Assembly: GCA_037833965.1 (NCBI GenBank)
Contig: AP031357.1
Location: 1,694,001-1,758,000 of the forward strand
Reading direction: 5' to 3'
DNA length: 64,000 nucleotides
Origin: Marchantia polymorpha subsp. ruderalis
Lineage: Eukaryota; Streptophyta; Marchantiopsida; Marchantiales; Marchantiaceae
Under the pieces are notes generated by a model, which had not been told where the DNA came from, searched no databases, and was given only the letters and a program-made list of their open reading frames with translations. Below, piece after piece: positions 16,241-53,450 of this stretch; position 1 is the stretch's first letter; each line of letters begins with the position of its first letter. The translations under genes were made by a program, and so were the position numbers.

Positions 16241-16694
16241 GAATGGGAGCTAAGAGTGAAGCGAAATCTGAGACTGAAATCTGACAGTCGGGATCTGAAA
16301 TTGAAACTGAAAAGAGAGAGTTGAATCTGACAAAGGAATCTAGTGGAGTTTGAAGGTGGAAGCTAAGAAATCGACACTGAAATCTAAGTAGGAATTGGAA
16401 GTGGAACTCGGAGCTAGGATAGACCACAGCGGCTGTGGTATTGAGAAAGTCACCCAGAGTTGGGTTAGATCTTTATGTAACAAAGAGCTTGTCTGCTGCT
16501 CTTGTGGAGATAGCAGACAGCAAGTTATTATTTTCAGTTCTAGATAATTTGTCTGTGAAAGAGCAAATGTTTATGATCTCATTGTCTTGAATGCACTTTG
16601 ACCACATGGTCAAGATCAGAGAAGATAGATTATGGGAGCTCGAACCCCCACCTGGACTACAAACGCTGAAGGGTGGGGAGTTTAGGCTCACAAT
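16241..16694. other. Unassigned sequence with degenerate minisatellite end
   Basis: Holds diverged minisatellite units to about 16400, then about 290 bp of different composition. A purine-rich GAAGGGTGGGGAG lies at about 16667-16679, shortly before family I LTR sequence resumes at 16695. No TSD links this boundary to the left edge of the family III segment. No gene is supported. Confidence 0.4.
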
Positions 16695-20887: not shown

Positions 20888-20920
20888 GATAGTGTAGTGC
20901 TAGTTAGGATCTTTTGAGAG

Positions 20921-20949
20921 TATAAAGTAGATCAAGGCGTTTTGCCTTG
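20921..20949 (+). promoter_or_regulatory. LTR TATA box and promoter-proximal hairpin
   Basis: TATAAAG begins at 20921. CAAGGC-GTTTT-GCCTTG (20933-20949) is a perfect 6-bp stem with a 5-nt loop. It corresponds to CCAGGC-GTTTT-GCCTGG in the youngest family I LTR. Confidence 0.75.
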
Positions 20950-21844
20950 GGACTCTTCCAGTTTCGGAAGTGCAGATCAGGAACTCACTTTCTTGGCGTG
21001 TTTGTGCATTTTGGTCCTGGCACCACGTAGAGAAGCTGCAGCATAGCGAAGTTACCGTATGTTGTAGTTGAAGGCCTTCGGCTGAATGTTCAGAGCTAGC
21101 ACCCGGTTAGAGACTTGAGTAGTGCGGATCTGCACCTGCGGGTGATTTCTGATGCTCAGAGCCGGCTGCGAGTTAGATACTTGAACAGTTCCCCCTTACT
21201 CCTTCGAGTGACATATCCTGATTGTACTCCTACGGGAAGTTTCCCCTGAATGCCAATGTGAAGTTTCATTACTTCGTGTAAACCTTGGTTTGTAATTCAG
21301 GTTGTGTGTGTGTTACTGGATCGTGTTTTCAGTAAGTTCTCAGTCGGGTCTGCACTCCCTGCGTTTTGTGTGATAGTCGAGGGTGACGTCCACGGCGTAC
21401 GTAGAGGCTTCGTTCCGAAGTGAGAAGTCCAGTCCGGGTACCCCCGCTAGTTCCTGGCGGAAGGGCAGTAAAAGCCGGAGTGGGAGGCACTTCCTGCAGA
21501 ACCTCTGAGTGAACTTACGAGACACTTTCCTCCTGAAATCCGAAGCGGAGGTCCTGACCGACCTCCGAGTTGTGCTTTTTGCCAGTTTCAGGTGTGTGTG
21601 TGTGTGTGTTGAGTGACCAAGCTGTACCGTGCATCCTCCGAGCATCCTCCGAGTTGAGATCCTCCTCCGAGTCGAGCCTCCGAGTCGAGCACTGCAGTAT
21701 TTCAGGGAGTGACAGTCGCCTAGAATTCAAACTCTACAAAAGTCTGTTAAACGTGACACTTTTACTCTGTGTGTTGCCTCTGTCCCTGTGGGTTTGATCT
21801 TTTTACCACCATACTGCAGTTTTAGCCTTTGGTGGGTTATTACA

Positions 21845-25204: not shown

Positions 25205-26157
25205 TGTAATAACCCACTTAAGGCTAAAACTGCAATATAGTGGTAGAAAGGTCAAACCCACAGGGAAAGAGGAACACACAGGGTACAAAGTGTCACGTTT
25301 AACAGACTATTGAGGAGTTTGAATTCTCAGGCGACTGTCACTCCCAGAAATACTGCAAGTGTCCACTCGGAGCGCACTCGAAGGTCGCACAGTGCAGCGT
25401 AAAACACACACACACACACACACACACACATGAAACTACAAAAACACAACCCAGAGATCCGTTAGGACCTCTACTCAAGATTTCAGGGGGGAAGTCTCGC
25501 AAGGGTACACTCAGCAAAGCTGCGGGCAGTGACTCCCAACTCCGGCTTTTACAACACTTCCACTAGCTTGCTGCTAGTGTAGGAAACCCGGTTTGGACTG
25601 CCTACTTCGGATCGAAGTCACTCCTACGCGGTGAACAACACTCTCAACTCACAAAACGCGCAGAGAACACAGGTCCGCACTGAAGGACTCACTGTGAAAC
25701 ATTCCAGTAACACAACAACAGTCTATTGAAGAGTTTGAATTCTCAGGCACTTGTCATTCCCAGAAATACTACAAGGGTTACCCTGAAGGCACCTGCTGCA
25801 GCGTAACCTGAATTTACAACCAAGGCTTACACGAAGTGACAAAACTTCACTTTGGCATTTAGGGGAAAAATCCCGGAGGAGTACAATCAGAAACAAACAC
25901 TCGAAGGTACAGGGGCGAAACTATTCAAGTATCTAACTAGTCACTGGCTCTTAGCATCGGCAGTCACCCCCAGGTGCAGATCCGAACTACTCAAGTCTCT
26001 AACCAATGTACTAGCTTTGAACATTCGGCAGAAGGCCTTCAGCTACAAAATGCGGAACGCTAAGTTGTAACTCCTCTTGCGTGGTGACAGAACTTAAGGA
26101 CACAAACACGCAGAGGAAATGGGTCCTGATCTGCACTTCTGAGTTTGGGAAAGAACC

Positions 26158-26186
26158 CAAGGCGAAACGCCTTGAACTATTTTATA
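26158..26186 (-). promoter_or_regulatory. LTR hairpin and TATA box (minus strand)
   Basis: CAAGGC-GAAAC-GCCTTG (26158-26174, top-strand reading) lies beside TATTTTATA (26178-26186), the inverted TATA box. The stem is perfect. Confidence 0.7.
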
Positions 26187-26222
26187 CCTTCTAAATCCTA
26201 ACTAGCACTACACTGCACTACG

Positions 26223-28321
26223 CTACACGCCTGCACGGAACCACGCTACACTACACTCCGCGCAACCAGTGCTACGTCTCCTGCGCGACGGATTGCCGCG
26301 CACTAACTCCCTACCCTGCCAGTCTTCCGCTCGACTGCGCAGTCCCAACCGCTGCAACGCCGCGGACACCTCCACCTCGAGGGTGGACATGGTATCCCGC
26401 GCCTTCGACAGAAAAGCGTCGAGCTTCTTCGCTACCTTCCGCCGACTGCTGCTGTCGCCTGCCACCAACCCTGCTACGCGAAGTTCAAACTCACGTAGTG
26501 TGAGTCTCTCCTGCGCCGCCACTTCCCAGTGGGCGTAGCCCTTGAGACAGTGGGCGACACGCCTCGCCTTCTCCACCTTCGTGCGATCTGCCTCTCGCCT
26601 GCGATCCTCTTCAATTGCCACTAACTGCGATTCTGCCTCCGCACGCTGCGCTCTCAATTCGCCACACTCTGACTGTAGCCTGCGGATTAAATCCTCATCC
26701 GCCTGCCGTGCGAGCTGACACTCCGCCAACAACCGCGTCTGTCGCACGAGCTCCTCTGACAGAATCTGATTCTGAGTTTTCTCAGACATCAAATCCTGCG
26801 TGGTCTGCAACACATCCCTGGTGAGCTCTTCCACTCTATTCTTCCGCATCCTGTCGAGGGCGTGCGATTTCCTCTCAAGGTTGTACTGCCCCCATAAACA
26901 GACATGCCTCTCCTTCAATTCCCTCAACTCCTGGTCCACCCTAGCTAGTAGCTTGCTGGTGTGGACTTTAGTGCGAGTCCGCCTGCGCACTAATTCGATG
27001 TAAGATCCCGGCTCAAGTGGATCGGCGTATTTATCAATTTTGCGATCCAAGTACTTCAGCAACGGAATCCCCTGCTCAGAGAGTTTGCCGCCGCCGGCGC
27101 TCCAACAATTTCCTCCTCCTCCTCCTCGGTATCCCCCGCTCCCGACATTTCTTCGGCGAAGCCTCCGTCGTCATCATCCGAGCTGAGGATTTCAGTCGCC
27201 ATTTATTGCGTCGGCGACTGACCCGAGTGGGGCTGCACGTCGTTGACGTGTGCTGCCTGCGAAGGCACCGCTGCAGCCTCGCTGCTCTTCGTCAAAATGT
27301 CTAAGGCGGTAGGCGAATGCGGCCGGGCTACAACCCCGTCGCCCGCTTCTCGGTCTTCTACCGTATCCTCTCTGCCGCCGACGTCCGCCGCCGAAGGCAA
27401 TCGAGCAGAGGGTAGCTGCGCGGGGTTTGATTGCGCATCGCGCACCGAAATTTCATCCCGCGGACAGTCACTCCGCTCCTCCTTCCGTTGCTGCTCCCTT
27501 GATCGGTCCGCGGGGGCTGTGCCTGGCCTGTGCGCAGGCGCAAATGCCGGCGCCTTGTCCGCCGCAGGCGCAGCGCCGCGGACGTCCATCGCCAAAGGCG
27601 ACATGGCCGGGGGCCGCTCGCCCGATGTCTCTTGGCCCTTAGGCCCTACCGCCGAAGGCGCATCTACCGGCGGATTACCCGCCGATGGTGCGGCCTCCGC
27701 ACGCTCCCTGCTCGCATCTCCTCGGCCCGAAGGCCCTGGCGCCGAAGGCGCAAATCGCGGCGCGTTGTGTGCCGGAGGGTCTAACCCCGAAGGCCGGTGT
27801 CTCGTAGGCGGATCTTCCGCCGGCTCCTTCCCCTTCCTACGTTGGAACGGGAGTGATTCCTGCCTGTGCACAGGCGGCACGTGTGGAGGCGACCTGTGCA
27901 CAGGCGAGCGCCTGTGCACAGGCGGACTGCTTCTTCCCACGCGTAGGCGTAGGTCCACGTCCGCTTGTGGTCGTCTGTCCGGCATAGTCGAGGCTCGCCC
28001 GTCCGTTGAGGCTCGATTGTCCGTCGAGGCTCGCCCGTCCGTCGAGGCTCGCCTGTGCGCAGGCGGAACACCTGTCCGCAACGCACGTGGTAACTCCGGA
28101 GGCCCTTGGCCCGTAGGCGGCCTCTCGTCCGTCGAGGGTGCAGCGCGGTCCGTTGCTCATGCGGACGTCCGCGCTCCCTCGTTCTTCTCCGGCGACGCAC
28201 TTCCTTTTTCTGTGGCAATCGTCGCCGTGTCTGCGCTGTTGGCTGGTAACACAAGCCTGCGCGCCTTCTGCTTCGGCCGGCTGTATGATTAGTACAACGG
28301 CCGCGGTCGAATGGGAGCAGA
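26223..28321 (-). pseudogene. U3 ORF of solo LTR, C-terminal part
   Basis: Continues leftward from the N-terminal part at 57854-58664. The coiled-coil end (26223-27062, 279 codons, ending FRAGV) is open. The low-complexity middle is broken by stops, for example TGA for GGA in the region near 28160 and TAA near 28290, and by a frame change near 27080 around the acidic/alanine stretch. The palindrome-rich PVHRR-type section (about 27870-27925) has fewer units than the intact copies. Confidence 0.8.
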
Positions 28322-28326
28322 GGGTT
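28322..28326 (-). repeat. TSD GGGTT, left copy
   Basis: GGGTT at 28322-28326 and 57849-57853 flank the complete minus-strand family I element. The duplicated bases fall in the LTR sequence GCAGAGGGTTCTTGATG, which is intact at 55536-55552. Confidence 0.9.
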
Positions 28327-29814: not shown

Positions 29815-30318
29815 TGTGATACCCCACTTTTGGCAATTTTGAGGAAATTAAAACATTTTTGAAAAACTGTACCCTGGCAGCATTGTAAATAGCCTTCGGT
29901 ACATCAAAACAGAGTGAATCCGGAAGATCGCGGGGATTCTCGAGGGATCTTGTAGAATCTGGGATTTGGGGTGCCGCAGTAAGGACAGGCACGACCCTCC
30001 CTGCGAGCTCCGCAGTTAGGATCTCTACGGCGCAAGGCGCAAAACCCGCCTTCGGAGGTTGCGTCCGCGGCTGTAGGGAAACCCCCGTAATTAGGTAAAC
30101 CCTCGGGCGCCTTGACCAAGTTGGATCCCGTTGGAAAGAGCTCGACGCGCTGATTCCAACGAGCCCAAGAACGCTTGGAACGGACGAGGACTTAGGGAGT
30201 TATCGCTACGGGAAGAAACGGAGGCGGTCGCCTACGGCGGAAGGAGTTCGCCACCGGCGCGAATTCCGCCTACGCGGAAGGGGGATTCAAGTTTTGTCCT
30301 ATGCACGGACGAAGGCGT

Positions 30319-30395
30319 TCGCCTGTGCACAGGCGAAGTAGGGTTAGGGAAGGCGCAAAGTCCGCCTACGCACAGGCGTATGCCTGTGCACAGGC
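30319..30395. repeat. Cluster of GCCT-N6-AGGC palindromes in non-coding U3
   Basis: TTCGCCTGTGCACAGGCGAA (30319-30338) is a perfect 20-bp palindrome. GCCTACGCACAGGC (30364-30377) and GCCTGTGCACAGGC (30382-30395) follow. Identical copies occur in the 3' LTR at +11,114. Confidence 0.88.
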
Positions 30396-31235
30396 ACTTC
30401 GGCGTCGGCGAGAAATCCGCCTTGGGCCCTAGAAATGCGCCTTGTGAGGTAGAAAGTGTACGGCGCCTTCCGCGCCAGCGCAGCGCCGCGTACGTCGGAA
30501 GAGCCGCCAGAGTAATCCAACAGGTACGGACCGTGCGGACGGCACGGGTGGATGCGCTCTTGGACGGACGGAGTTGCGGCGGCGGAAGCGCCAACGGAGA
30601 GACAAGGAACGGACAGACTGGACGGAGACGGCTGACCACGGTCAACGCCTCCCGCGCCAGCGCAGCGCCGCGGACGAAATTTGCCTGCGCACAGGCAGGA
30701 GTTGAATTTTTGTCCGACATGCGGACACACGCGTCAAGGCAGAAGGAGATTGGCCGAGGGGCGGTACGAACAAGTGTACCGCGCAAGGCGGAAAACTCGC
30801 CTTCGGCGCTACGCCCCCATGTCCACAGGGTGACACGCTCGCGGAGTTCAAATCCGCCAATTCGAGCGTGAGAGTTTAATCGACGACGGCGGAGCGTGAA
30901 GCCGCGCGTGAGAGCGAAGACCGTTCCAGCGTACAGCCGGCGCGGCCATCAAGTGAGACGTTCTTCACGACCAAGAGCCGACCATGACCTTCGACCGGGC
31001 GGCGGAGAGCGTCCCATTCTTGAATTCGCGATTCCAATCTCTTGTGCGCGCTGCGCGCATCCATCTGCTGGCTGCGGACCATTCTCGTCGTCGTCGCACA
31101 GGAGATTTCTTGTTGATTGAGGGAGAAGTGAGTGCGCGTGATTTGGAATTGAGAGCGATTAGAGTTTGCCGAGAGAGAAAGAAACGCGGACAGTGCGGAA
31201 GTAGAATGAGCGGGCGAGCGAACCCCAGGAACGCA

Positions 31236-34121
31236 ATGACGAGACCGAGCAGATTGCGGATGGTGCCACTTCGCCTGCCGCAGAACGGGCTGCGCGCTTT
31301 CGAGGAGCGCTTAATAGCAAGAAAGCTCGATTTCTTGCTATGGGGATGGAATTACATCTGCGCGAATATGGTGCGCGAGTGGCTAGAGCCACAGGGACCA
31401 CCCTCGCGCGGATTGCGTCCGCATGTTGACCGGTGGACAGTCCAAGATTGGGCGCAGGCGTTGGGAAGATGTGCTGGCATGCCAGGGCATCTCCTTTTCG
31501 ACAGTGAGAGCATCAAGGTGACCAAGCAAGAAGAGGCGCAATTTGTGGAGCTGTTCAAGACCGGGAGGTCTACCAAGAATGGGTACAGGACCCGTGATTA
31601 CAAGGATCGATTTCGCCGGACTTTGTCCGCGGCGCTGATGCAATTACTGCAGCCGCACCGCGCCTGCTACATCACATTGTGGCAGGTCTCTTTTGTGGAG
31701 TGCGTCATCGAGGGAACTCCCATTCACTGGGCGAGCATCCTGCACAGGGTGATGCGACAGCACGCGTTTGAGGAGAAGGGGGGAACTCTAAACCATCTTT
31801 CTCCTTTCCTCATCAATTTTTATCGACAGCGGAATTGTTTGACAGTGGCGGAGCTTGAACATTTTCCGCCATTGTCCATCGACCATCCCGGGAAGTATGT
31901 GCGGGAGAACGAGGTCGATACTGACGCAGAGGAGTCCCCGACTTCTACCCCATCAAGACGGAGAGACGAAGGGAGACACACCTCTGCAGCGCGAGTGCCG
32001 CGGAAGCGGCGATGGAGGGAAGAGTCCGAAGAGGAGCAGCATCAAGAACCCTCTGCTCCCATTCGACCGCGGCCGCTGTGCAAGCCATACAGCCGGCCGA
32101 AGCAGAAGGCACGCAGACTGGTGTTGCCAGCTGACAGTGCAGACACGGCGACGATTGCGACGGAGATAGGAAGTGCTTCGCCAGAGAGGCGAGAGGAAGC
32201 GCGGACGACCGCAGGAGCGACGGGCCACGCTGCAACCTCGTCGGGAGAGAGGCCGCCTACGGGCCAAGGGCCTCCGGAGTTACCACGTGCGATGCGGACA
32301 GAGGTTCCGTTTGCGCACAGGCGAACCTCCGCGGACGGACGAGCCTCCGCGGACCGGCGAACACAAGTGGACGTGGATCTACGCTTACGCGTGGGAAGGA
32401 GCAGTCCGCCTGTGCACAGGCGCTCGCCTGTGCACAGGTCGCCTGTGCACAAGACACCTCCGCACGTGCCGCCTGTGCACAGGCAAGAATCACCCCCGTT
32501 CCAACGTAGGAAGGGGAAGGAGCCGGCGGAAGAACCGCCTACGAGACACCGGCCCTCGGGGCCAGACCCTCCGGCGCACCACGCGCCGCAATTCGCGCCT
32601 TCGGCGCCAGGGCCTTCGAGCCGAGGGGACACGAGCAGAGAGCGTGCGGAGGCCGCACCATCGGCGGGAAGTCCGCCGATAGATGCGCCTTCGGCAGTAG
32701 GGCCTATAGGCCAAGGAACATCGGGCGTGCGGCCCCCGGCCATGTCGCCTTCGGCGATAGATGTCCGCGGCGCTACGCCTGCGACGGACAAGGCGCCGGC
32801 AAATGCGCCTGCGCACGGGCCGGGCACAGCCCCCACGGACCGATCAAGGGAGCAGCAGACGGAGGAGCGGAGTGACTGTCCGCGGGACGACATCTCGATG
32901 CGCGATGCGCAATCCAATCCCGCGCAGCCACCCTCCGCTCGATCGCCTTCGGCGACGGACGACGGCGACAGAGAGAATGCGGTGGGCAATCAACCAGCGA
33001 GCGACGGGGATGCCGCTCGGATACATTCGCCTTCCGCCTTAGACATTTTGGCGACGAGCAGCGAGGCCGCAGCCGTGCCTTCGCAGGCAGCACACGTCGA
33101 GGACGTGCAGCCCCACTCGGGGCAGTCGCCGACGCATTCAATGGCGACTGAAATTCTCCACTCGGATGATGACGACGGGGGCTCCACGGAAGAAATGTCA
33201 GGAGCAGAAGACACCGAGGAGGAGGAGGAGGAAATTGTTGGAGCGCCGGCGGCGGCGCTCTCTGAGCAGGTGATTCCGTTGCTGCGGTACTTGGATCGCA
33301 AGGTCGATAAATACGCCGACCCACTCCAGCCGGGATCTTACATCGAGTTAGTGCGCAGGCGGACTCGCACTAAAGTCCACACCAGCAAGCTATTAGCTAG
33401 AGTGGACCAGGAGTTGAGAGACTTGAGGGAGAAGCATGAGTGCTTGTGGGGACAGTACAAGCTTAATCAGAAGTTCTACAAGCACTCCGAGAAGATGAAG
33501 GATGAGAAACTGGGCGAGCTCACCAAGGAGCAGGTGAAGGTCAAGGAAGCACTCAATTCTGAGCAGGCCCAGAATCGGATTTTGTCAGAGGAGCTCGTGC
33601 GACAGACGCGGTTGTTGGAACAATGTCAGCTCGCACGGCAGGCGGATGAAGAATTAATCCGCAGTTTGCAGTCAGAGTGTGACGAATTGAGAGCGCAACG
33701 TGCTGAAGCCGAATCGCAATTAGTGACGATTGAAGAGGATCGCAGGAAGGAGGCGGATCGCACGAAGGTGGAGACGGCGAGGCGAGTCGCCCACTGTCTC
33801 AAGGGCTACGCCCACTGGGAAGTGAAGGCGCAGGAGAAACTCACACTGCGTGAGTTTGAATTGCGCGCAGCCGGGTTGTTGTCAGGCGACAGTAGGAGTC
33901 GGCGGAAGGTAGCGAAGAAACTCGAGGCCTTTCTGTCGAAGGCACAGGATACCATGTCCGCCCTCGAGGGGGAGGTATCCGCGGCGTTGCAGCGGTTGGG
34001 ACTGCGTAGTCGAGCGGAAGAGTGGCAGGGTAGGGAGTTAGTGCGCGGCAGTCGGCCGCGCAGGAGACGTAGTACAGGTTCCGCGGAGTGTAGTGTAGCG
34101 TGGTTCCGTGCAGGCGTGTAG
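31236..34121 (+). CDS. U3-encoded protein of family I LTR (961 codons, intact)
   Basis: A single open frame in U3 ends 36 bases before the TATA box. ATG 31236 is chosen because AACGCAATG is also the start context of the family II homologue; the frame stays open upstream to ATG 30984 (84 more codons, conserved among family I copies only). Residues ~20-230: conserved domain (FLLWGWNYIC, LGRCAG, KNGYRTRDYKDRFRR, HWASILHRVMRQHA, NHLSPFLINFYR). Residues ~235-635: P/S/A/R-rich, encoded partly by CCTTCGGC and palindromic units. Residues ~643-670: acidic (SDDDDGG, TEEEEEE). Residues ~680-925: coiled coil with GYAHWEVKAQEKLTLREFELRAAG, then a basic RPRRRR tail. No membrane segment, zinc knuckle or catalytic motif was seen. 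Function is unknown; a nucleic-acid- or Gag-binding accessory protein is only a guess. Confidence 0.8.
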   Translation: MTRPSRLRMVPLRLPQNGLRAFEERLIARKLDFLLWGWNYICANMVREWLEPQGPPSRGLRPHVDRWTVQDWAQALGRCAGMPGHLLFDSESIKVTKQEEAQFVELFKTGRSTKNGYRTRDYKDRFRRTLSAALMQLLQPHRACYITLWQVSFVECVIEGTPIHWASILHRVMRQHAFEEKGGTLNHLSPFLINFYRQRNCLTVAELEHFPPLSIDHPGKYVRENEVDTDAEESPTSTPSRRRDEGRHTSAARVPRKRRWREESEEEQHQEPSAPIRPRPLCKPYSRPKQKARRLVLPADSADTATIATEIGSASPERREEARTTAGATGHAATSSGERPPTGQGPPELPRAMRTEVPFAHRRTSADGRASADRRTQVDVDLRLRVGRSSPPVHRRSPVHRSPVHKTPPHVPPVHRQESPPFQRRKGKEPAEEPPTRHRPSGPDPPAHHAPQFAPSAPGPSSRGDTSRERAEAAPSAGSPPIDAPSAVGPIGQGTSGVRPPAMSPSAIDVRGATPATDKAPANAPAHGPGTAPTDRSREQQTEERSDCPRDDISMRDAQSNPAQPPSARSPSATDDGDRENAVGNQPASDGDAARIHSPSALDILATSSEAAAVPSQAAHVEDVQPHSGQSPTHSMATEILHSDDDDGGSTEEMSGAEDTEEEEEEIVGAPAAALSEQVIPLLRYLDRKVDKYADPLQPGSYIELVRRRTRTKVHTSKLLARVDQELRDLREKHECLWGQYKLNQKFYKHSEKMKDEKLGELTKEQVKVKEALNSEQAQNRILSEELVRQTRLLEQCQLARQADEELIRSLQSECDELRAQRAEAESQLVTIEEDRRKEADRTKVETARRVAHCLKGYAHWEVKAQEKLTLREFELRAAGLLSGDSRSRRKVAKKLEAFLSKAQDTMSALEGEVSAALQRLGLRSRAEEWQGRELVRGSRPRRRRSTGSAECSVAWFRAGV
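32408..32484. repeat. Coding palindrome array (PVHR units)
   Basis: GCCTGTGCACAGGC at 32408-32421, 32426-32438 (last base changed), 32441 onward (partial) and 32471-32484. In frame they encode PVHRR/SPVHR-type repeats of the U3 protein. The minus-strand sister element has at least one more unit and the solo LTR fewer, so the array length is unstable. Confidence 0.85.
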
Positions 34122-34157
34122 CGTAGTGCAGTGTAGTGCTAGGTAGGATTTAGAAGG

Positions 34158-34186
34158 TATAAAATAGTTCCAGGCGTTTTGCCTGG
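34158..34186 (+). promoter_or_regulatory. LTR TATA box and promoter-proximal hairpin
   Basis: TATAAAATA at 34158-34166, then CCAGGC-GTTTT-GCCTGG (34170-34186), a perfect 6-bp stem. Other copies have CAAGGC/GCCTTG, a compensatory change at the second stem pair. The position suggests it forms at or just before the RNA 5' end. Confidence 0.78.
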
Positions 34187-34571
34187 GGTTCTTTCCCATC
34201 AGAAGTGCAGATCAGGAACCCATTTCCTTTGCGTGTTTGTGTCCTTGAGTTCTGTCACCACGCACGAGGAGTTACAACTTAGCGTTCCGCATTTTGTAGC
34301 TGAAGGCCTTCGGCCGAATGTTCAGAGCTAGTACATTGGTTAGAGACTTGAGTAGTTCGGAACTGCACCTGCGGGTGACTGCCGATGCTCAGAGCCAGTG
34401 ACTAGTTAGATACTTGAACAGTTTCGCCCCCTACACCTTCGAGTGTTTCTTTCTGATTGTACTCCTTTGGGATTTTTCCCCTGAATGCCAAAGTGAAGTT
34501 TTGCTACTTCGTGTAAGCCTTGGTTGTAAATTCAGGTTACGCTGCAGCAGGTGCCTTGAGGGTAACCCCTG

Positions 34572-34626
34572 TAGTATTTCTGGGAATGACAAGTGCCTGA
34601 GAATTCAAACTCTTCAATAGACTGTT
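34572..34626 (+). repeat. U5 direct repeat, copy 1
   Basis: The block starting AGTATTTCTGGGAATGACA and ending AATAGACTGTT is repeated with few changes at 34981-35035. The pair is present in nearly all LTR copies of both families. Confidence 0.8.
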
Positions 34627-34980
34627 GTTGTGTTACTGGAATGTTTCTCAGTGAGTCCTTCAGTGCAGACCTGTGTTCTCTGCGCGTTTTGTGAGTTGAG
34701 AGTGTTGTTCACCGCGTCTGAGTGACTTCGATCCGAAGTAGGCAGTCCAAACCGGGTTTCCTACACTAGCAGCAAGCTAGTGGAAGTGTTGTAAAAGCCG
34801 GAGTTGGAAGTCACTGCCCGCAGCTTTGCCGAGTGTGCTCGTGAGAGACTTTCCCCCCTGAAATCTTGAGTAGAGGTCCTAACGGATCTCTGAGTTGTGT
34901 GTCTGTAGTTTCAGGTGTGTGTGTGTGTGTGTGTTACGCTGCACTGTGCGACCTCCGAGTGCGCTCCGAGTGGACACTTG

Positions 34981-35035
34981 CAGTATTTCTGGGAGTGACA
35001 GTTGCCTGAGAATTCAAACTCCTCAATAGTCTGTC
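34981..35035 (+). repeat. U5 direct repeat, copy 2
   Basis: Second copy of the 34572-34626 block, about 410 bp downstream and after the TG microsatellite. Confidence 0.8.
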
Positions 35036-35154
35036 AAAACGTGACACTTTATACCCTGTGTGTTCCTCTGTCCCTGTGGGTTCGACCTTTCTACCACTAT
35101 ATTGCAGTTTTAGCCTTTAGTGGGTTATTACATAAGAAGCCGACAACTTCTTTT

Positions 35155-35172
35155 TGGCGCCGGTGCCGGGGA
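35155..35172 (+). promoter_or_regulatory. Primer-binding site (tRNA-Asp type)
   Basis: TGGCGCCGGTGCCGGGGA differs by one base from the perfect complement of plant tRNA-Asp as I recall it. It starts 22 bases after the LTR end (35132). The spacer 35133-35154 can pair AAGAAG with CTTCTT. Confidence 0.78.
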
Positions 35173-35207: not shown

Positions 35208-35249
35208 ATGCTCGGTGAATGTCGACTGGGGCTGGCGGGAGCAACCTAA
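35208..35249 (+). other. Short upstream ORF overlapping gag start
   Basis: ATG 35208 opens a 13-codon frame ending TAA at 35247-35249, overlapping the gag ATG at 35219 in another frame. The old element has the same 42-nt uORF (25059-25100). It may reduce gag initiation; this is inferred from layout only. Confidence 0.5.
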
Positions 35250-38050
35250 GTGCTAGAGCTGTCCGCAAGTTCCGACGAGATTCCGAGAAGGCCGTGGAAG
35301 AGACACGGCGTCAAAACAAGAAAACACCAAAAAGAGTACCTAAGCCTAGTTCGGCCGACATCCTTGGGGAACCTACCCCCGACGACTCGGAACCAAACTT
35401 GGTGCTTACAGTTCTACTAGATATTCCTTGCACGGACCCGCCTAGTGAAGTAGAACCGACCGCCCGAGAACCGTCGACAGACACACCGATGGCGGACGGG
35501 CAAGCCAATGTGCGGCTACCTCAGCCGATTACTAAACATTCCTACCCGAAGTACAAAGGGAGTGGGGATGACAACAATGCAGATTCATACATCAAGTTGT
35601 TCGAGTCGGTGTCTATTGCCAATCGCGAGATCGCAGACGACGACCGACTAAGGATCTTTCCAAGCCTTCTGCGGAAGAAAGCGAGGAGTTGGTATAATCA
35701 CGAGAGCATCGATCCGACTGGGTTGACAACATGGGCCCAGCTGAAGGAGAAGTTCCTTCGCCGCTTTCGCGAGCTCGGCTACGACAGCCGGGTTTTGACA
35801 AAGTTACGTAATTTGCAGCGAGAGAAGAAGGAGAGTCTGCGTGACTACACTGAGAGATTTCTAGACCTCCTTGACAGAATACCGAAAACAGGACCAGGGT
35901 CCCCTTTCTCGGTACAACAAGCTGTGGATTGGTACGTGACGGGTTTAACTCGGGAGATGGAGACTTTTTGCCGACGCAGCAAGTGCGACACTATTGAGGA
36001 TGTGATTGCGTCGGCAGAAGCCTTCGAAACTTCCACTCTCAACCGAAGAGGGAGAGAGAGACGGGAGTCGAAGGAGCGAAAACCGAAGGGAGGGCGGAGA
36101 CGACGTAGAGGTACAACTCCGTCATCGGAGGAATCGTCTTCGGACGAGAACCGTTCTTCATCCGAAGAAGAGGAAACCTCATCGTCGGAGGAGGAGAAGA
36201 AGAGGAAGAAGCATGGGTCAGCGAAGAAAAAGGGCATCCGACGAGTGACTACGGACAGAGCGTCGGGGGATATAGCTTCGAAGATGGAGACCCTTGTGAA
36301 GGACTTCGCCGATCTCAAGGTTCAAGTGGTAGGCGGGCATGATCGCAAAAAATCACCCGGGAGAGTGCGAGCGAACTTATGGTGTACTACGTGCGGGGCG
36401 GTGGGGCATGCAAACACCGAGTGCCTTACCACCCGTCCGTCATATCCAGTCAACGCAGTAGAGTGGGCGCAACCGTACTATGGAGAGCACCCTCAGTACT
36501 ACGGAGAGGCGAGCGAAGAGACAGCCTACGCCGTCCAGTCGGTTCCTACCCCTCCTGCAGTTTCAGCAATGCAAGTCCCACGATATATTCCGGTGGATCG
36601 GGCCACTACGGTACCTGTGAGGCGGAGAGCACCTCCAGGGACGTTTGACCCACCGCCACCGCGAGCTTGTTATAATTGCGGGGAAGTTGGGCACTTCTCA
36701 CCGCAGTGTCCCCATCCAAAAAGGCGAAACGATTATGCTCCGACATGTAGTAATTGCAAGAAGGTCGGGCACACTGCGCCAGAGTGTGATCAGCCACCAG
36801 TCCCTCGGCCAGTGGTACGATTTGTGAACACTCCTGCCAAGGAGGACGTGCAAGTTAACCAGGTCGAAGTAGGTTCAGACGGGGATGGCGAAGACGAAGA
36901 ATGGCCGGCTGAAGAGGTTATGTGCGCACGGGTCGAAACTCGTAGCTCCAAGAAATCCAAGGAGCAAGAGCGTGACACTCGCAAGCACGAACGGAGAACC
37001 GCCGACCGGACGGGGAAAGGAAAGGAGAAGACATCCAGCAAGTCCGACTCGCGACCTGCTCGGAAGTCTTCGGCTACGCGGGAGGCACCAGCAGTGCGCC
37101 CCCAGACAGCAGTCGAGGACGAGCCAGTGCGCATACTGAAACGGGACTATGCTCCGGATATCCGCAACGAGGTAGCCAACCTGTTGAAGGAAGCGATCCG
37201 CACGCAAAAGGACCCACCGCGGCCAGACTTGACATCCTCCCTTGGGGCGAAGTTGGCAGCCACCGTGGAACCTCGCAGGGCGTCGCCGACCCCGGCGACC
37301 CAACGCGCCCACTATGACTTGGTTGAAGATCTCGGGAGTCGAAAAGTGAACATCACGTTCAAGCAGCTCTTGGAGGACAATAAGACGTACCGGAGAATGT
37401 TGATGCTTTCGCTACGGCATCCGCGGAAGCCGCGCGCATCCGCATCCTCTCAAGTATATCAAGTGGAGAGCGAAGACCAAGGGCCACCCGAGATCGATGT
37501 GGAAATAGCAGGATGTTGTGTACGCAGAGTGCCAATCGACTCTGGATCAGGAGTCAACATAATGACGGAGGATACAGCGAGAGCCTTGGGGTTCAGTCAA
37601 TACGAACCCTCGAAGCGTGTGTTGAGATTAGCGGATCAGACGCGGAGAATGCCTGCAGGTATGCTGCGCAATGTCAAGACAACCATCGGGGGTGCAGACT
37701 TTCGGTTGACGTATATCATCCTTCAACCGATGATGAAGCAGGGCTATGACGTTCTGCTCGGGCGACCATGGCTATATGGTGCACAAGTCAGATGTGATTG
37801 GCGAAGACATCGCCTTAAGTTTCCTCATCCTTCGGAACCGACCAAAACCATTACGGTGCCCTGGAATAGGGTCAGGCACGAAGGAGAGACCCCATCGACA
37901 AGTGCAGGTTACACATCGGGAGAGGACAGTGAGTCGACCGCGCGATCGGATTCCAGTGGTACCGAATCCGATTACTTCGTGGGATTCGTTGCCTGCTGTT
38001 CGGTGGAAGAAGAAGAAGAGACGGAAGCTATTCAGCCGGGAGACGAATAG
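35219..38050 (+). CDS. gag: Gag-protease polyprotein, intact (943 codons)
   Basis: Residues ~120-270 match the retrotransposon Gag capsid-type domain (ADSYIKLFESV, RKKARSWYNHES, LREKFLRRF-like, AEAFETS). Residues ~300-340 are a Ser/Glu-rich acidic block followed by lysines. Three CCHC zinc knuckles of form CX2CX4HX4C start at residues ~389 (CTTCGAVGH), ~484 (CYNCGEVGH) and ~510 (CSNCKKVGH), the first well separated from the other two. An aspartic protease active site PIDSGSGVNIM is at ~774, followed by LLGRPWLYG. ATG 35219 is the start shared by all three copies. The frame ends with TAG in readthrough context and pol follows in the same frame. It would form the particle core, bind RNA and process the polyprotein. 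Confidence 0.93.
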   Translation: MSTGAGGSNLSARAVRKFRRDSEKAVEETRRQNKKTPKRVPKPSSADILGEPTPDDSEPNLVLTVLLDIPCTDPPSEVEPTAREPSTDTPMADGQANVRLPQPITKHSYPKYKGSGDDNNADSYIKLFESVSIANREIADDDRLRIFPSLLRKKARSWYNHESIDPTGLTTWAQLKEKFLRRFRELGYDSRVLTKLRNLQREKKESLRDYTERFLDLLDRIPKTGPGSPFSVQQAVDWYVTGLTREMETFCRRSKCDTIEDVIASAEAFETSTLNRRGRERRESKERKPKGGRRRRRGTTPSSEESSSDENRSSSEEEETSSSEEEKKRKKHGSAKKKGIRRVTTDRASGDIASKMETLVKDFADLKVQVVGGHDRKKSPGRVRANLWCTTCGAVGHANTECLTTRPSYPVNAVEWAQPYYGEHPQYYGEASEETAYAVQSVPTPPAVSAMQVPRYIPVDRATTVPVRRRAPPGTFDPPPPRACYNCGEVGHFSPQCPHPKRRNDYAPTCSNCKKVGHTAPECDQPPVPRPVVRFVNTPAKEDVQVNQVEVGSDGDGEDEEWPAEEVMCARVETRSSKKSKEQERDTRKHERRTADRTGKGKEKTSSKSDSRPARKSSATREAPAVRPQTAVEDEPVRILKRDYAPDIRNEVANLLKEAIRTQKDPPRPDLTSSLGAKLAATVEPRRASPTPATQRAHYDLVEDLGSRKVNITFKQLLEDNKTYRRMLMLSLRHPRKPRASASSQVYQVESEDQGPPEIDVEIAGCCVRRVPIDSGSGVNIMTEDTARALGFSQYEPSKRVLRLADQTRRMPAGMLRNVKTTIGGADFRLTYIILQPMMKQGYDVLLGRPWLYGAQVRCDWRRHRLKFPHPSEPTKTITVPWNRVRHEGETPSTSAGYTSGEDSESTARSDSSGTESDYFVGFVACCSVEEEEETEAIQPGDE

Positions 38051-38056
38051 CAATTA
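38048..38056 (+). promoter_or_regulatory. Leaky Gag-Pol stop, UAG-CAA-UUA
   Basis: The gag stop TAG is followed by CAATTA, matching the CAR-YYA readthrough context known from tobacco mosaic virus. Pol continues in the same frame with no ATG until 38246, inside its conserved sequence, so readthrough is the simplest route to Pol. The same nine bases occur at 9796 and, inverted, at 49521. Confidence 0.8.
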
Positions 38057-40891
38057 ACTGTGGGACTGGGAAGGAGTGAGACGAGTCACACTGAGGGCAT
38101 TGTCGACCCTAGTGACTGTCACGAAGTACAACTCAGTCCCGGCAAGTGCTTGAAGGTATCAAGCGCAGTGAGAGGAGACGAGCTAAGGAAAGTACAGGCC
38201 TTCCTTAGCCATTATGTCGACGTCTTCGCCTGGAAGATCGAAGACATGAAGGGGATACCTGCACGGTATGGGGAACACCGTATCGATTTACTGGACGACT
38301 CAGTACCCATACGACAGCGCCAATATCGCCTCAACCCAAAGTACTCCTTGCTAGTGAAAGAGGAGATAGATAAGTACTTGAGCGCTGGTATTATTTACCC
38401 TGTGCTCAGCAGCGAGTGGATGTCGCCGATTGTTATCGTACCCAAGAAGTTGACGGGTAAGATACGAGTGTGTCAGGATTTCCGGAAGTTGAATGCAGCA
38501 ACACGCAAGGATCATCACCCGTTACCATTCACGGATGCCATTCTAGACCATGTCGCAGGACATGAATGTTATAGCTTCCTGGATGGGTTCTCAGGTTACA
38601 ATCAGGTGTCTATCCGTGAACAGGACAAGGATAAAACTACGTTCACAACCGACTGGGGAACTTACGCATACCACAAGATGCCCTTCGGTCTGTGCAACGC
38701 GCCTGCCACCTTTCAACGGATGATGACCAATATCTTTCAGGAGCAACTGAGGAAATTCCTGGAAATATTCATAGATGACTTCTGTGTCTTTGGGAAGCGG
38801 TCTGAACACCTAAGTCACTTGAAGCAGACCTTTGATAAATGTAGAGAGAGCAGTTTATCACTGCATCCCGAGAAGTGCTTTTTCTTTATGACTAGTGGGA
38901 TCTTGTTGGGTCATCGGGTCTCGGCAGACGGCATTGCGGTGGACATCGAGAAGGTCAAGGTTATACTCGAGCTTGAGCCACCCACGAATCTAAGGGAGCT
39001 GCGAGCATTCCTGGGTCATGTGGGCTACTACCGAAGATTCATACATATGTATGCAATACTGGCGGCGGACCTGACCAAGTTGTTAAAGAAGGACGAGCCT
39101 TATGCTTGGGGTGCGAACCAGCAGTCAGCATTTGAGGCTCTAAAAGCAAAACTCACGACTGCTCCCGTACTAAGGAGTCCAGACTGGAATCGACCATTCC
39201 ATGTTTATGTTGACACCTCGGCATTCGCCATCGGTGTAGTACTGAGTCAAAAGGATGACAACAAAAAGGACTACCCGATCTACTTCGCGAGCCGACAGCT
39301 GTCTCTAGCAGAGCGGAAGTACACCACGACGGAGAGAGAAGCGTTGGGGATGGTGTACTCCTGTAAAAAGTTCCGTCACTACCTAATCTGCTACGAGTTT
39401 GTGTTCCATGTGGACCACTACGCATTGCAACACCTAGTCAAGAAAGCCGACCTATCCGGTCGGATCGCCAGGTGGGTGTTATTACTACAAGAGTTCACCT
39501 ACACTGTCCAGACCAGGAAAGGGGTGCACCACGAAAATGCGGATTACTTGTCCCGATTATGGACACAGCCGACAGAGGAGGAATTGGTGGACGATTTTCC
39601 AGATGAAGAGTTATTTCAGTTGTCTGCAGGACATGAGTCCCGCTATGCCGACCTGTATCGATATCTGCTAACCCTCCAGTGTCCCGAAGGCATGGATTTG
39701 GAACAGCGAACTGTCTTCATTCATAAGGCAGGCCCGTATCAACTCCAGCAGGGGGTTTTGTTCAAGAAGATGGCGGATGAGCGCTTATGCAGATGCCTGG
39801 AGGAATCAGAAGTACCAAGAATAGTGAGTGCGATGCATACAGAGGAGGCGGGTGGACACTATGCCACCAGGAACACGGTCACAAAGATCCTAAACGCGGG
39901 ATATTGGTGGCCGACCATGTTTAAGGATGTTCTGGATTACATCCGCAAGTGCGACAGTTGCCAGAGGACGGGGAGACCGACGCCTACAACACGCTGGCCC
40001 CTGACTCCCATCATGCCTCTAGCACCTTTCGAAAAGTGGGGTATTGACTTTGTAGGGCCGATACAACCAGTGACTAGAAGTACACGAAGGCGCTACATTC
40101 TGGTAGCAACGGACTATGCCACCAAAATGGTAGAGGCCAAAGCCACCAGAAGGGATGATGCTGCCACAGTCGCCGCATTCTTGTTTGAGTCGATCATCAC
40201 ACGCTACGGATGTCCCTTAGAGCTAGTCAGCGACCGGGGCACGCATTTTCTGAATCAGATCATCGAAGATCTGACACGGTATTTCCATATCAAGCACCGG
40301 AAGACTACTCCCTACAATCCCAAGGCAAATGGACTAACGGAGAAGTCCAATGGTCTGCTGTGTAAAATACTACTCAAGGTCACGGTGAATCACGCTCACG
40401 ACTGGGATACGAAGCTAGCAGCCGCTCTATGGGCGTACCGCACAGCTGAGAAGATCACGACCAAACAGACACCATACTTTCTGGTGTATGGGCAACACCC
40501 GATCCTCCCGATCGAATTTGAAGTACCCACCCATCGAACGATGGATTTGCAGAGGATGGGCTCAGAGGAGAGTCAGCTCTACAGGTTACAGGAAGTCACG
40601 CTGCTGGATGAGAGGAGAAGAGACGCCGAAGATCGCACCAGGAAAATCCAGCTCCGCCGAAAGGAGAGATACGATAAAAAGATCAAACCGGTACTCCTGC
40701 AGGCGGGTGATTTGGCATTGCTCTACGACAGCAGGCATGCCAGATTCCCAGGCAAACTGCACCTAAGGTGGATGGGACCTTACAGGGTTGTCGAAGTCTT
40801 CCCGAATGGATCCATCCAACTTGCGGACCTGGCCGGCGATTTGTTAGGCACCCGAGTGAACGGGTGGCGGTTGAAGAAATACCACATGTGA
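38051..40891 (+). CDS. pol: Pol: RT, RNase H, integrase, intact
   Basis: Read in the gag frame after the UAG. Counting from 38060, RT runs from about residue 95 (SLLVKEEIDKYLSAGIIYPV) with the catalytic FIDDF at ~239. RNase H starts with VDTSAFAIG (Asp ~385). The integrase zinc finger ends in CDSC (~630), and the core has Asp ~663 (WGIDFVG), Asp ~725 (SDRGTHF) and Glu ~761 (LTEKSNG), giving the D-35-E spacing. The C-terminus has a GPY/F segment (MGPYRVVEVFPNG) and ends NGWRLKKYHM without a chromodomain, as in Ogre/Tat/Athila-type elements. All catalytic residues are present. It copies the RNA to DNA and inserts it. Confidence 0.95.
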   Translation, partial: QLTVGLGRSETSHTEGIVDPSDCHEVQLSPGKCLKVSSAVRGDELRKVQAFLSHYVDVFAWKIEDMKGIPARYGEHRIDLLDDSVPIRQRQYRLNPKYSLLVKEEIDKYLSAGIIYPVLSSEWMSPIVIVPKKLTGKIRVCQDFRKLNAATRKDHHPLPFTDAILDHVAGHECYSFLDGFSGYNQVSIREQDKDKTTFTTDWGTYAYHKMPFGLCNAPATFQRMMTNIFQEQLRKFLEIFIDDFCVFGKRSEHLSHLKQTFDKCRESSLSLHPEKCFFFMTSGILLGHRVSADGIAVDIEKVKVILELEPPTNLRELRAFLGHVGYYRRFIHMYAILAADLTKLLKKDEPYAWGANQQSAFEALKAKLTTAPVLRSPDWNRPFHVYVDTSAFAIGVVLSQKDDNKKDYPIYFASRQLSLAERKYTTTEREALGMVYSCKKFRHYLICYEFVFHVDHYALQHLVKKADLSGRIARWVLLLQEFTYTVQTRKGVHHENADYLSRLWTQPTEEELVDDFPDEELFQLSAGHESRYADLYRYLLTLQCPEGMDLEQRTVFIHKAGPYQLQQGVLFKKMADERLCRCLEESEVPRIVSAMHTEEAGGHYATRNTVTKILNAGYWWPTMFKDVLDYIRKCDSCQRTGRPTPTTRWPLTPIMPLAPFEKWGIDFVGPIQPVTRSTRRRYILVATDYATKMVEAKATRRDDAATVAAFLFESIITRYGCPLELVSDRGTHFLNQIIEDLTRYFHIKHRKTTPYNPKANGLTEKSNGLLCKILLKVTVNHAHDWDTKLAAALWAYRTAEKITTKQTPYFLVYGQHPILPIEFEVPTHRTMDLQRMGSEESQLYRLQEVTLLDERRRDAEDRTRKIQLRRKERYDKKIKPVLLQAGDLALLYDSRHARFPGKLHLRWMGPYRVVEVFPNGSIQLADLAGDLLGTRVNGWRLKKYHM

Positions 40892-40915: not shown

Positions 40916-40926
40916 GAGGAGGGGGG
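40916..40926 (+). promoter_or_regulatory. Polypurine tract
   Basis: GAGGAGGGGGG, followed by CA, directly precedes the 3' LTR start TGTGATACC at 40929. It is the plus-strand primer site. Confidence 0.88.
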
Positions 40927-40928
40927 CA

Positions 40929-43900
40929 TGTGATACCCCACTTTTGGCAATTTTGAGGAAATTAAAACATTTTTGAAAAACTGTACCCTGGCAGCATTGT
41001 AAATAGCCTTCGGTACATCAAAACAGAGTGAATCCGGAAGATCGCGGGGATTCTCGAGGGATCTTGTAGAATCTGGGATTTGGGGTGCCGCAGTAAGGAC
41101 AGGCACGACCCTCCCTGCGAGCTCCGCAGTTAGGATCTCTACGGCGCAAGGCGCAAAACCCGCCTTCGGAGGTTGCGTCCGCGGCTGTAGGGAAACCCCC
41201 GTAATTAGGTAAACCCTCGGGCGCCTTGACCAAGTTGGATCCCGTTGGAAAGAGCTCGACGCGCTGATTCCAACGAGCCCAAGAACGCTTGGAACGGACG
41301 AGGACTTAGGGAGTTATCGCTACGGGAAGAAACGGAGGCGGTCGCCTACGGCGGAAGGAGTTCGCCACCGGCGCGAATTCCGCCTACGCGGAAGGGGGAT
41401 TCAAGTTTTGTCCTATGCACGGACGAAGGCGTTCGCCTGTGCACAGGCGAAGTAGGGTTAGGGAAGGCGCAAAGTCCGCCTACGCACAGGCGTATGCCTG
41501 TGCACAGGCACTTCGGCGTCGGCGAGAAATCCGCCTTGGGCCCTAGAAATGCGCCTTGTGAGGTAGAAAGTGTACGGCGCCTTCCGCGCCAGCGCAGCGC
41601 CGCGTACGTCGGAAGAGCCGCCAGAGTAATCCAACAGGTACGGACCGTGCGGACGGCACGGGTGGATGCGCTCTTGGACGGACGGAGTTGCGGCGGCGGA
41701 AGCGCCAACGGAGAGACAAGGAACGGACAGACTGGACGGAGACGGCTGACCACGGTCAACGCCTCCCGCGCCAGCGCAGCGCCGCGGACGAAATTTGCCT
41801 GCGCACAGGCAGGAGTTGAATTTTTGTCCGACATGCGGACACACGCGTCAAGGCAGAAGGAGATTGGCCGAGGGGCGGTACGAACAAGTGTACCGCGCAA
41901 GGCGGAAAACTCGCCTTCGGCGCTACGCCCCCATGTCCACAGGGTGACACGCTCGCGGAGTTCAAATCCGCCAATTCGAGCGTGAGAGTTTAATCGACGA
42001 CGGCGGAGCGTGAAGCCGCGCGTGAGAGCGAAGACCGTTCCAGCGTACAGCCGGCGCGGCCATCAAGTGAGACGTTCTTCACGACCAAGAGCCGACCATG
42101 ACCTTCGACCGGGCGGCGGAGAGCGTCCCATTCTTGAATTCGCGATTCCAATCTCTTGTGCGCGCTGCGCGCATCCATCTGCTGGCTGCGGACCATTCTC
42201 GTCGTCGTCGCACAGGAGATTTCTTGTTGATTGAGGGAGAAGTGAGTGCGCGTGATTTGGAATTGAGAGCGATTAGAGTTTGCCGAGAGAGAAAGAAACG
42301 CGGACAGTGCGGAAGTAGAATGAGCGGGCGAGCGAACCCCAGGAACGCAATGACGAGACCGAGCAGATTGCGGATGGTGCCACTTCGCCTGCCGCAGAAC
42401 GGGCTGCGCGCTTTCGAGGAGCGCTTAATAGCAAGAAAGCTCGATTTCTTGCTATGGGGATGGAATTACATCTGCGCGAATATGGTGCGCAAGTGGCTAG
42501 AGCCACAGGGACCACCCTCGCGCGGATTGCGTCCGCATGTTGACCGGTGGACAGTCCAAGATTGGGCGCAGGCGTTGGGAAGATGTGCTGGCATGCCAGG
42601 GCATCTCCTTTTCGACAGTGAGAGCATCAAGGTGACCAAGCAAGAAGAGGCGCAATTTGTGGAGCTGTTCAAGACCGGGAGGTCTACCAAGAATGGGTAC
42701 AGGACCCGTGATTACAAGGATCGATTTCGCCGGACTTTGTCCGCGGCGCTGATGCAATTACTGCAGCCGCACCGCGCCTGCTACATCACATTGTGGCAGG
42801 TCTCTTTTGTGGAGTGCGTCATCGAGGGAACTCCCATTCACTGGGCGAGCATCCTGCACAGGGTGATGCGACAGCACGCGTTTGAGGAGAAGGGGGGAAC
42901 TCTAAACCATCTTTCTCCTTTCCTCATCAATTTTTATCGACAGCGGAATTGTTTGACAGTGGCGGAGCTTGAACATTTTCCGCCATTGTCCATCGACCAT
43001 CCCGGGAAGTATGTGCGGGAGAACGAGGTCGATACTGACGCAGAGGAGTCCCCGACTTCTACCCCATCAAGACGGAGAGACGAAGGGAGACACACCTCTG
43101 CAGCGCGAGTGCCGCGGAAGCGGCGATGGAGGGAAGAGTCCGAAGAGGAGCAGCATCAAGAACCCTCTGCTCCCATTCGACCGCGGCCGCTGTGCGAGCC
43201 ATACAGCCGGCCGAAGCAGAAGGCACGCAGACTGGTGTTGCCAGCTGACAGTGCAGACACGGCGACGATTGCGACGGAGATAGGAAGTGCGTCGCCAGAG
43301 AGGCGAGAGGAAGCGCGGACGACCGCAGGAGCGACGGGCCACGCTGCAACCTCGTCGGGAGAGAGGCCGCCTACGGGCCAAGGGCCTCCGGAGTTACCAC
43401 GTGCGATGCGGACAGAGGTTCCGTTTGCGCACAGGCGAACCTCCGCGGACGGACGAGCCTCCGCGGACCGGCGAACACAAGTGGACGTGGATCTACGCTT
43501 ACGCGTGGGAAGGAGCAGTCCGCCTGTGCACAGGCGCTCGCCTGTGCACAGGTCGCCTGTGCACAAGACACCTCCGCACGTGCCGCCTGTGCACAGGCAA
43601 GAATCACCCCCGTTCCAACGCAGGAAGGGGAAGGAGCCGGCGGAAGAACCGCCTACGAGACACCGGCCCTCGGGGCCAGACCCTCCGGCGCACCACGCGC
43701 CGCAATTCGCGCCTTCGGCGCCAGGGCCTTCGAGCCGAGGGGACACGAGCAGAGAGCGTGCGGAGGCCGCACCATCGGCGGGAAGTCCGCCGATAGATGC
43801 GCCTTCGGCAGTAGGGCCTATAGGCCAAGGAACATCGGGCGTGCGGCCCCCGGCCATGTCGCCTTCGGCGATAGATGTCCGCGGCGCTACGCCTGCGACG

Positions 43901-45080
43901 GACAAGGCGCCGGCAAATGCGCCTGCGCACGGGCCGGGCACAGCCCCCACGGACCGATCAAGGGAGCAGCAGACGGAGGAGCGGAGTGACTGTCCGCGGG
44001 ACGACATCTCGATGCGCGATGCGCAATCCAATCCCGCGCAGCCACCCTCCGCTCGATCGCCTTCGGCGACGGACGACGGCGACAGAGAGAATGCGGTGGG
44101 CAATCAACCAGCGAGCGACGGGGATGCCGCTCGGATACATTCGCCTTCCGCCTTAGACATTTTGGCGACGAGCAGCGAGGCCGCAGCCGTGCCTTCGCAG
44201 GCAGCACACGTCGAGGACGTGCAGCCCCACTCGGGGCAGTCGCCGACGCATTCAATGGCGACTGAAATTCTCCACTCGGATGATGACGACGGGGGCTCCA
44301 CGGAAGAAATGTCAGGAGCAGAAGACACCGAGGAGGAGGAGGAGGAAATTGTTGGAGCGCCGGCGGCGGCGCTCTCTGAGCAGGTGATTCCGTTGCTGCG
44401 GTACTTGGATCGCAAGGTCGATAAATACGCCGACCCACTCCAGCCGGGATCTTACATCGAGTTAGTGCGCAGGCGGACTCGCACTAAAGTCCACACCAGC
44501 AAGCTATTAGCTAGAGTGGACCAGGAGTTGAGAGACTTGAGGGAGAAGCATGAGTGCTTGTGGGGACAGTACAAGCTTAATCAGAAGTTCTACAAGCACT
44601 CCGAGAAGATGAAGGATGAGAAACTGGGCGAGCTCACCAAGGAGCAGGTGAAGGTCAAGGAAGCACTCAATTCTGAGCAGGCCCAGAATCGGATTTTGTC
44701 AGAGGAGCTCGTGCGACAGACGCGGTTGTTGGAACAATGTCAGCTCGCACGGCAGGCGGATGAAGAATTAATCCGCAGTTTGCAGTCAGAGTGTGACGAA
44801 TTGAGAGCGCAACGTGCTGAAGCCGAATCGCAATTAGTGACGATTGAAGAGGATCGCAGGAAGGAGGCGGATCGCACGAAGGTGGAGACGGCGAGGCGAG
44901 TCGCCCACTGTCTCAAGGGCTACGCCCACTGGGAAGTGAAGGCGCAGGAGAAACTCACACTGCGTGAGTTTGAATTGCGCGCAGCCGGGTTGTTGTCAGG
45001 CGACAGTAGGAGTCGGCGGAAGGTAGCGAAGAAACTCGAGGCCTTTCTGTCGAAGGCACAGGATACCTCTGTCCGCCCTC
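40929..45080 (+). repeat. 3' LTR of plus-strand element, truncated
   Basis: Matches 29815-33965 at an offset of 11,114 with about four substitutions, plus a small change ATG to TCTG at 45068-45071. It stops at CTC 45078-45080 where inverted LTR sequence of the host element begins. R-U5 (about 1.17 kb including TATA and polyadenylation region) is missing, so the element lacks its normal 3' end. Confidence 0.93.
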
Positions 45081-53385: not shown

Positions 53386-53414
53386 CCAGGCAAAACGCCT
53401 GGAACTATTTTATA
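53386..53414 (-). promoter_or_regulatory. LTR hairpin and TATA box (minus strand)
   Basis: CCAGGC-AAAAC-GCCTGG (53386-53402, top-strand reading) is a perfect stem, next to the inverted TATAAAATA (53406-53414). The sister 3' LTR has a mismatch in this stem (GCGTGG at 29281-29286). Confidence 0.75.
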
Positions 53415-53450
53415 CCTTCTAAGTCCTACCTAGCACTACACTGCACTACG

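Follow-up and report, generated by a model that had tools for sequence, protein, structure and literature searches.

A conserved protein gene inside the U3 of a liverwort Ty3/gypsy long terminal repeat

Additional genes of retroelements and the Marchantia locus

According to the portions of the literature consulted, the additional open reading frames (ORFs) of plant Ty3/gypsy elements are internal to the element, their usual site being between pol and the 3′ long terminal repeat (LTR) (PMC7264820, PMC11963269, PMC6317226). Those described in the same excerpts include the antisense Transposase_28 ORF of Retand, Grande and RIRE2, the plant mobile domain (PMD) ORF of Ogre and ORF-1 of Athila; a regulatory role has been proposed for the extra ORF of Retand, and that of Grande encodes a nuclear protein (PMC11963269, PMC6317226, PMC7264820). 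The ORF analyzed here, located at 31236-34121 on the forward strand, belongs to a Ty3/gypsy element, E1, in a 64,000-nucleotide stretch of the Marchantia polymorpha subsp. ruderalis genome (contig AP031357.1, positions 1,694,001 to 1,758,000; hereafter the window). It resembles the extra ORFs of Retand, Grande, RIRE2, Ogre and Athila in being a conserved gene, other than gag and pol, of a plant Ty3/gypsy element, and differs from them in its sense orientation and in lying wholly inside U3, so that each LTR has a copy and solo LTRs retain it. Pfam scans of the N-terminal domain of the encoded protein, of eight homologues and of 39 alignment members revealed no Transposase_28, PMD or Athila ORF-1 domain, and the ORF proteins matched no family at its Pfam cut-off. 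In the open-access literature searched, as far as its text was available, no plant element with a gene inside its LTR was found, in agreement with the preliminary description of this DNA, which knew of none with a U3 gene.

A coding sequence within the LTR is present in the mouse mammary tumour virus (MMTV), in which sag lies in U3, downstream of the main genes and in both LTRs, an arrangement shared in part by lentiviral nef; the sag product is a membrane protein of the retrovirus. The Marchantia ORF has in common with sag its position in U3 and its presence in both LTRs, where the two copies are 99.8% identical across 906 codons. However, its protein has no strongly hydrophobic stretch, the highest 19-residue hydropathy being 1.14 (no signal-peptide predictor was run), which is consistent with the earlier statement that it contains no membrane segment, and no relation to the sag protein was detected, superantigen sequences not having been compared directly.

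An open and constrained reading frame in U3

The ORF is, with high confidence, a third gene of a liverwort Ty3/gypsy retrotransposon, maintained by selection and positioned in U3 after the polypurine tract and before the LTR promoter. On the forward strand, E1 comprises a 5′ LTR of 5.3 kb (29815-35132), a gag-protease region (35219-38050), a reverse transcriptase (RT)-RNase H-integrase region (38060-40891) and a truncated 3′ LTR (40929-45080), with 99.86% identity between the LTRs across 4152 bases. The Pfam domains follow the order Retrotrans_gag, Ty3_capsid, zf-CCHC, RVT_1, RT_RNaseH, Integrase_H2C2 and rve, with Asp_protease_2 just below the cut-off, and E1 is a Ty3/gypsy LTR retrotransposon, since RT-RNase H precedes integrase. 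Other hallmarks of this group are also present, namely TG...CA LTRs, three pairs of 5-bp target site duplications (TSDs) in the window, a polypurine tract and a TGGCGCC stretch resembling a primer binding site (PBS), 22 bases off the LTR end. The polypurine tract, GAGGAGGGGGGCA (40916-40928), adjoins the 3′ LTR, so that the order from 5′ to 3′ is the tract adjoining the LTR start, a non-coding 5′ part of U3 of 1.42 kb (29815-31235), the ORF and, 36 bases past it, the TATA box of the LTR promoter (TATAAA, 34158-34163). The pattern TATAWA has this single occurrence in the E1 LTR, and its counterparts are found at 53414 in the inverted relative E2 and at 20921 in a second LTR family, again just past the ORF of that family. 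The LTR limits and the position of the TATA box thus bear out the preliminary description in placing the ORF wholly within U3 and its end 36 bases before the box. However, CTAGT and GGGTT, which were taken there as the TSDs fixing the LTR limits of E1, belong to an older solo LTR and to E2, respectively; the TSD of E1 itself is unreadable because its 3′ end was lost in a deletion joined at 45075-45080.

The translation runs through 961 codons without an internal stop, as first described; at the local base composition a stop-free frame of this length would arise with a probability of ~4e-15, and the remaining five frames contain 12 to 31 stops. A chance ORF is therefore ruled out by this probability together with a gag-like pattern of codon positions. 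The frame extends open upstream to an ATG at 30984, which would give 1045 amino acids, and the methionine equivalent to 31236 is the first residue in the homologues P0011, P0013, P0017, P0018 and P0022. Between E1 and E2, the stretch from 30984 shows 0/3/3 differences by codon position, too few to decide the start. In the Marchantia models P0005, P0006 and P0008, the upstream parts resemble translations of the same region in other frames and, on this comparison, do not look like real exons.

Selective constraint was evident when E1 was compared with E2. Differences at codon positions 1, 2 and 3 amounted to 13/12/42 in the ORF, 13/13/39 in gag and 9/3/48 in pol, and to 11/8/13, with phase absent, in the U3 upstream of the ORF. 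CpG decay was rejected as the source of the third-position excess, which persists (11/6/24) without the CpG-affected sites. The ratio of nonsynonymous to synonymous change (dN/dS), for which codons with stops or gaps were removed pair by pair, was 0.23 for the ORF (bootstrap 0.13-0.38; 960 codons), and not near 1, the value in young copies that the preliminary description had named as evidence against a gene. Additionally, the only indel in the ORF is of 15 bases and in frame, and the eight found outside it measure 1, 1, 76, 2, 1, 1, 1 and 2 bases. Across the 51 pairs of copies with a computed ratio, dN/dS ranged from 0.11 to 0.62, one further pair being saturated. The values were 0.30-0.41 when E1 was paired with the damaged copies (solo, C1, C2 and E), and 0.58 for both solo-C1 and G-H. 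The bootstrap limits exceeded 1 in low-change pairs (E1 5′-3′ LTR, E1-E2R, E1R-E2R and E2L-E2R), which are uninformative, and in the E1-G pairs dS is saturated (3.1), so that their ratio of 0.18 is only indicative.

Copies, relatives and neighbouring features

The window contains related Ty3/gypsy elements and solo LTRs nested in one another. E1 sits in the 3′ LTR of E2 (28327-57848, TSD GGGTT), which in turn sits in the older solo LTR (25205-28326 and 57849-60117, minus strand, TSD CTAGT), whose ORF copy is degenerate. Since both LTRs receive U3, retroelement biology predicts an ORF copy in every LTR, also in solo LTRs, until decay; given its U3 position, the ORF should also be present at the 3′ end of the full-length RNA. 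Copies start at 42350 in the 3′ LTR of E1 (~906 codons) and occupy 53454-56351 of the minus strand in the 5′ LTR of E2 (52445-57848), the latter encoding a protein 97% identical and having a stop at codon 824. The second family, G, is represented by a forward-strand solo LTR (16974-21844, TSD AGCAC) with an intact homologous gene of 851 codons (18332-20887), whose protein is ~40% identical to that of E1. This gene and the copy in the 5′ LTR of E1 are the two full-length open copies in the window. Stops alone being counted, and not frameshifts, 4 of the 11 copies or fragments are stop-free over the aligned codons (E1 5′, E1 3′ to codon 906, G and a 93-codon fragment), and the other 7 have one to six stops each.

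Protein and profile searches for relatives of the ORF scored the ~8000 candidates that had the most words in common. The protein search recovered eight relatives, seven from Marchantia polymorpha (best local identity 44-55%) and one from Riccia sorocarpa (34%), and the profile search with the N-terminal part gave 83 matches at E up to 1, one of which was 98% identical; every named one came from Marchantia polymorpha. In the pol search, among the best 120 of 4549 matches, the top-scoring named ones came from Riccia (42-77% identity); Calypogeia reached 59% over a partial match, Marchantia 45-48% and seed plants 37-49%, two seed-plant entries outscoring Marchantia, and most others showed 41-62%, with one at 99%. 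In the Marchantia model P0062, an integrase end is joined straight onto a protein of the ORF type, as expected if the gene directly follows pol. These comparisons suggest that the LTR gene is old and is one of liverworts, with a liverwort as the most likely host. Capture of a host gene in one lineage, which the preliminary description considered a possible refutation, is unsupported, as the gene is present in more than one lineage, with at least two LTR families and proteins in both Marchantia and Riccia. Scans of viral and prokaryote contigs gave 32 and 71 pattern matches, respectively, and 0 relatives.

Several other features of the region were recorded. At 45075-45080, E1 and E2 adjoin in opposite orientation through their truncated 3′ LTRs, with a 6-base overlap, and the parts missing from both LTRs are best explained by one deletion of ~3.5 kb after nesting. 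The gag-protease ORF (943 amino acids) ends with an in-frame TAG, and the pol ORF, listed from its first GTG, continues in the frame of gag; both form one frame of 1891 codons interrupted solely by the TAG at codon 944, which is followed by CAATTA in E1 (38048-38056) and in E2 (minus strand near 49529). TAG-CAA-TTA matches the stop-codon read-through signal of the tobacco mosaic virus type, and pol is for this reason probably made by read-through. The PBS-like TGGCGCCGGTGCCGGGGA (35155-35172), which resembles a PBS of the tRNA-Asp type, does not adjoin the LTR but starts 22 bases past its end (35133-35172), with identical spacing in E2, and the gap can form the hairpin AAGAAG...CTTCTT. Tandem repeats between 29000 and 46000 are limited to short arrays, and a dense self-similar array, with pieces ~77-95% identical, lies at 15344-16305 between LTR fragments.

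Possible role of the encoded protein

The protein consists of an N-terminal domain (residues ~1-220), a variable region rich in proline and serine with SPVHR repeats, an acidic block (~638-677) and a C-terminal part poor in proline and glycine. The conserved N-terminal domain and the acidic block noted in the preliminary description were recovered; its long coiled coil became less certain, since the C-terminal third indeed has few prolines and glycines but a crude test of heptad periodicity was mixed in E1 and mostly negative in G. The protein is most likely nuclear, because it has basic clusters and lacks a strongly hydrophobic stretch. The best structural match of the N-terminal domain was VANC21/VANC6 (DUF1985; PDB 9lnj, 9lnk), Foldseek against PDB and BFVD giving nothing significant and no viral fold match. 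VANDALs are DNA transposons, and the likeness to VANC21 and VANC6 of the Arabidopsis VANDALs, as far as the consulted text describes them, lies in an element-encoded protein with a conserved domain and a repeat-rich variable region, together with short repeated motifs in the non-coding parts of the element. The Marchantia host element differs in being an LTR retrotransposon, and the anti-silencing activity of VANC proteins, which involves binding to repeated motifs of their own element and loss of DNA methylation, is here an analogy. Such a relationship is weakened by the lack of a DUF1985 match in the Pfam scans, by sequence similarity to VANC that is not significant and by shuffle tests that were weak or negative. 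Sequence searches of PDB with the profiles A4, A2 and A5 gave 0 matches, and with the single N-terminal sequence one chance-level match, to parvalbumin (E 1.8).

The best explanation of the whole, to which we assign a probability of roughly 0.4, is that the U3 gene encodes a nuclear protein acting on the DNA or chromatin of its own element. The N-terminal domain, whose fold may be VANC/DUF1985-like, would bind the LTR, perhaps as a dimer on palindromes of the non-coding U3, and the bound protein would oppose silencing or activate transcription. Expression might be driven by a promoter located within the 5′ part of U3 or, alternatively, involve splicing of the full-length RNA to an AG just 5′ of the ATG. 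The structural or regulatory factor of the preliminary description is thereby narrowed, as a hypothesis only, to a probably nuclear, VANC-like regulatory factor. A more specific version, in which a retrotransposon moved into its U3 a VANC-like sequence-specific anti-silencing gene with candidate palindromic targets that diverge between families, making each LTR a self-contained unit acting in trans, is doubtful.

Perfect palindromes of 16-20 bp occur in the non-coding U3 of E1 (30318-30337, 20 bp; 30381-30396, 16 bp), E2, C1, the solo LTR and C2, at numbers per region little above those of shuffles; E1, for example, has 2, and its shuffles averaged 0.45 and reached at most 3. At one palindrome, E1 and E2 share the sequence CGCCTGTGCACAGGCG and C2 has CGCCTACGCGTAGGCG at the aligned place, which amounts to two symmetric changes, and the same site is imperfect in the solo LTR and C1. 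The motif CGCCT-N6-AGGCG, with at most one mismatch, has 60 matches in the window, compared with 3.5 on average and 13 at most when the arms were permuted, but these matches are not independent, because they include duplicated LTR copies, and the palindrome motifs were picked post hoc, after inspection. The motif recurs in frame in the coding SPVHR repeats (for instance, 32407-32483) besides U3 (30318-30396 and other copies). The second family lacks the core TGTGCACA and carries other repeats. The palindromes might serve as binding sites for a dimer or form RNA hairpins, or they may be no more than short repeats that spread. As for splicing, a speculative 5′-UTR (untranslated region) intron, GTGAGT...CAG, may occupy 31128-31228 (+); in E1 the GTGAGT precedes the ATG by 108 bases and in G by 124, and this donor is lost in some copies, being absent from C2 and H.

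Another reading is that the gene, in the position of env, sag or nef, encodes an accessory protein that is translated from a spliced 3′ RNA and serves particle assembly, RNA export or movement between cells. The gene is in sense orientation downstream of pol and forms part of the full-length RNA, and all seven aligned U3 copies have an AG no more than 10 bases 5′ of the ATG. Plant elements with sense ORFs between pol and the 3′ LTR are also known, that of Bagy2 being spliced, according to the part of the source consulted (PMC7264820). Such a protein is nonetheless unlikely, considering the low hydropathy, the basic clusters suggestive of the nucleus and the absence of any Pfam family or viral fold match. 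The evidence for a DNA-binding LTR factor would serve equally a self-limiting repressor, which by binding its own LTR would hold transcription or new copies in check and for which solo LTRs would be additional sources, in a manner fitting dose control; this is quite unlikely, given that the VANCs, plant transposable element (TE) factors whose effect on silencing is known, counter silencing and activate transcription in Arabidopsis, as the available portions of the sources report (PMC5735166, PMC10398659).

The nesting of E2 in a solo LTR, of E1 in E2 and of the G solo LTR between LTR fragments, all in related LTRs, could reflect a tether that directs the pre-integration complex to targets such as other LTRs. 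However, nesting is common in TE-rich regions, the observation comes from this window alone, and Pfam finds no added targeting domain in pol, which makes a tether improbable. A captured host gene or a functionless passenger ORF would agree with the lack of a homologue of known function and is yet highly improbable in view of the dN/dS of 0.23, the codon-position pattern, the spread over LTR families and liverwort genera and the 83 matches, nearly all named ones in one species, rather than a single host gene.

LTRs are usually regarded as gene-free regulatory DNA, and solo LTRs are common remains of plant retrotransposons. A U3 protein gene conserved between families ~40% identical in protein means that solo LTRs can bear genes, and LTR age estimates and repeat masking would have to allow for coding constraint in such LTRs. 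If the product is indeed a VANC-like anti-silencing factor, targeted anti-silencing would also be encoded by retrotransposons, and this would be, within the available literature searched, the first case in an LTR retrotransposon and outside the VANDAL DNA transposons. Even solo LTRs would then combine an anti-silencing protein and its target, keeping relatives active in trans, and a liverwort, Marchantia polymorpha being a model plant, would be suited to testing retrotransposon anti-silencing.
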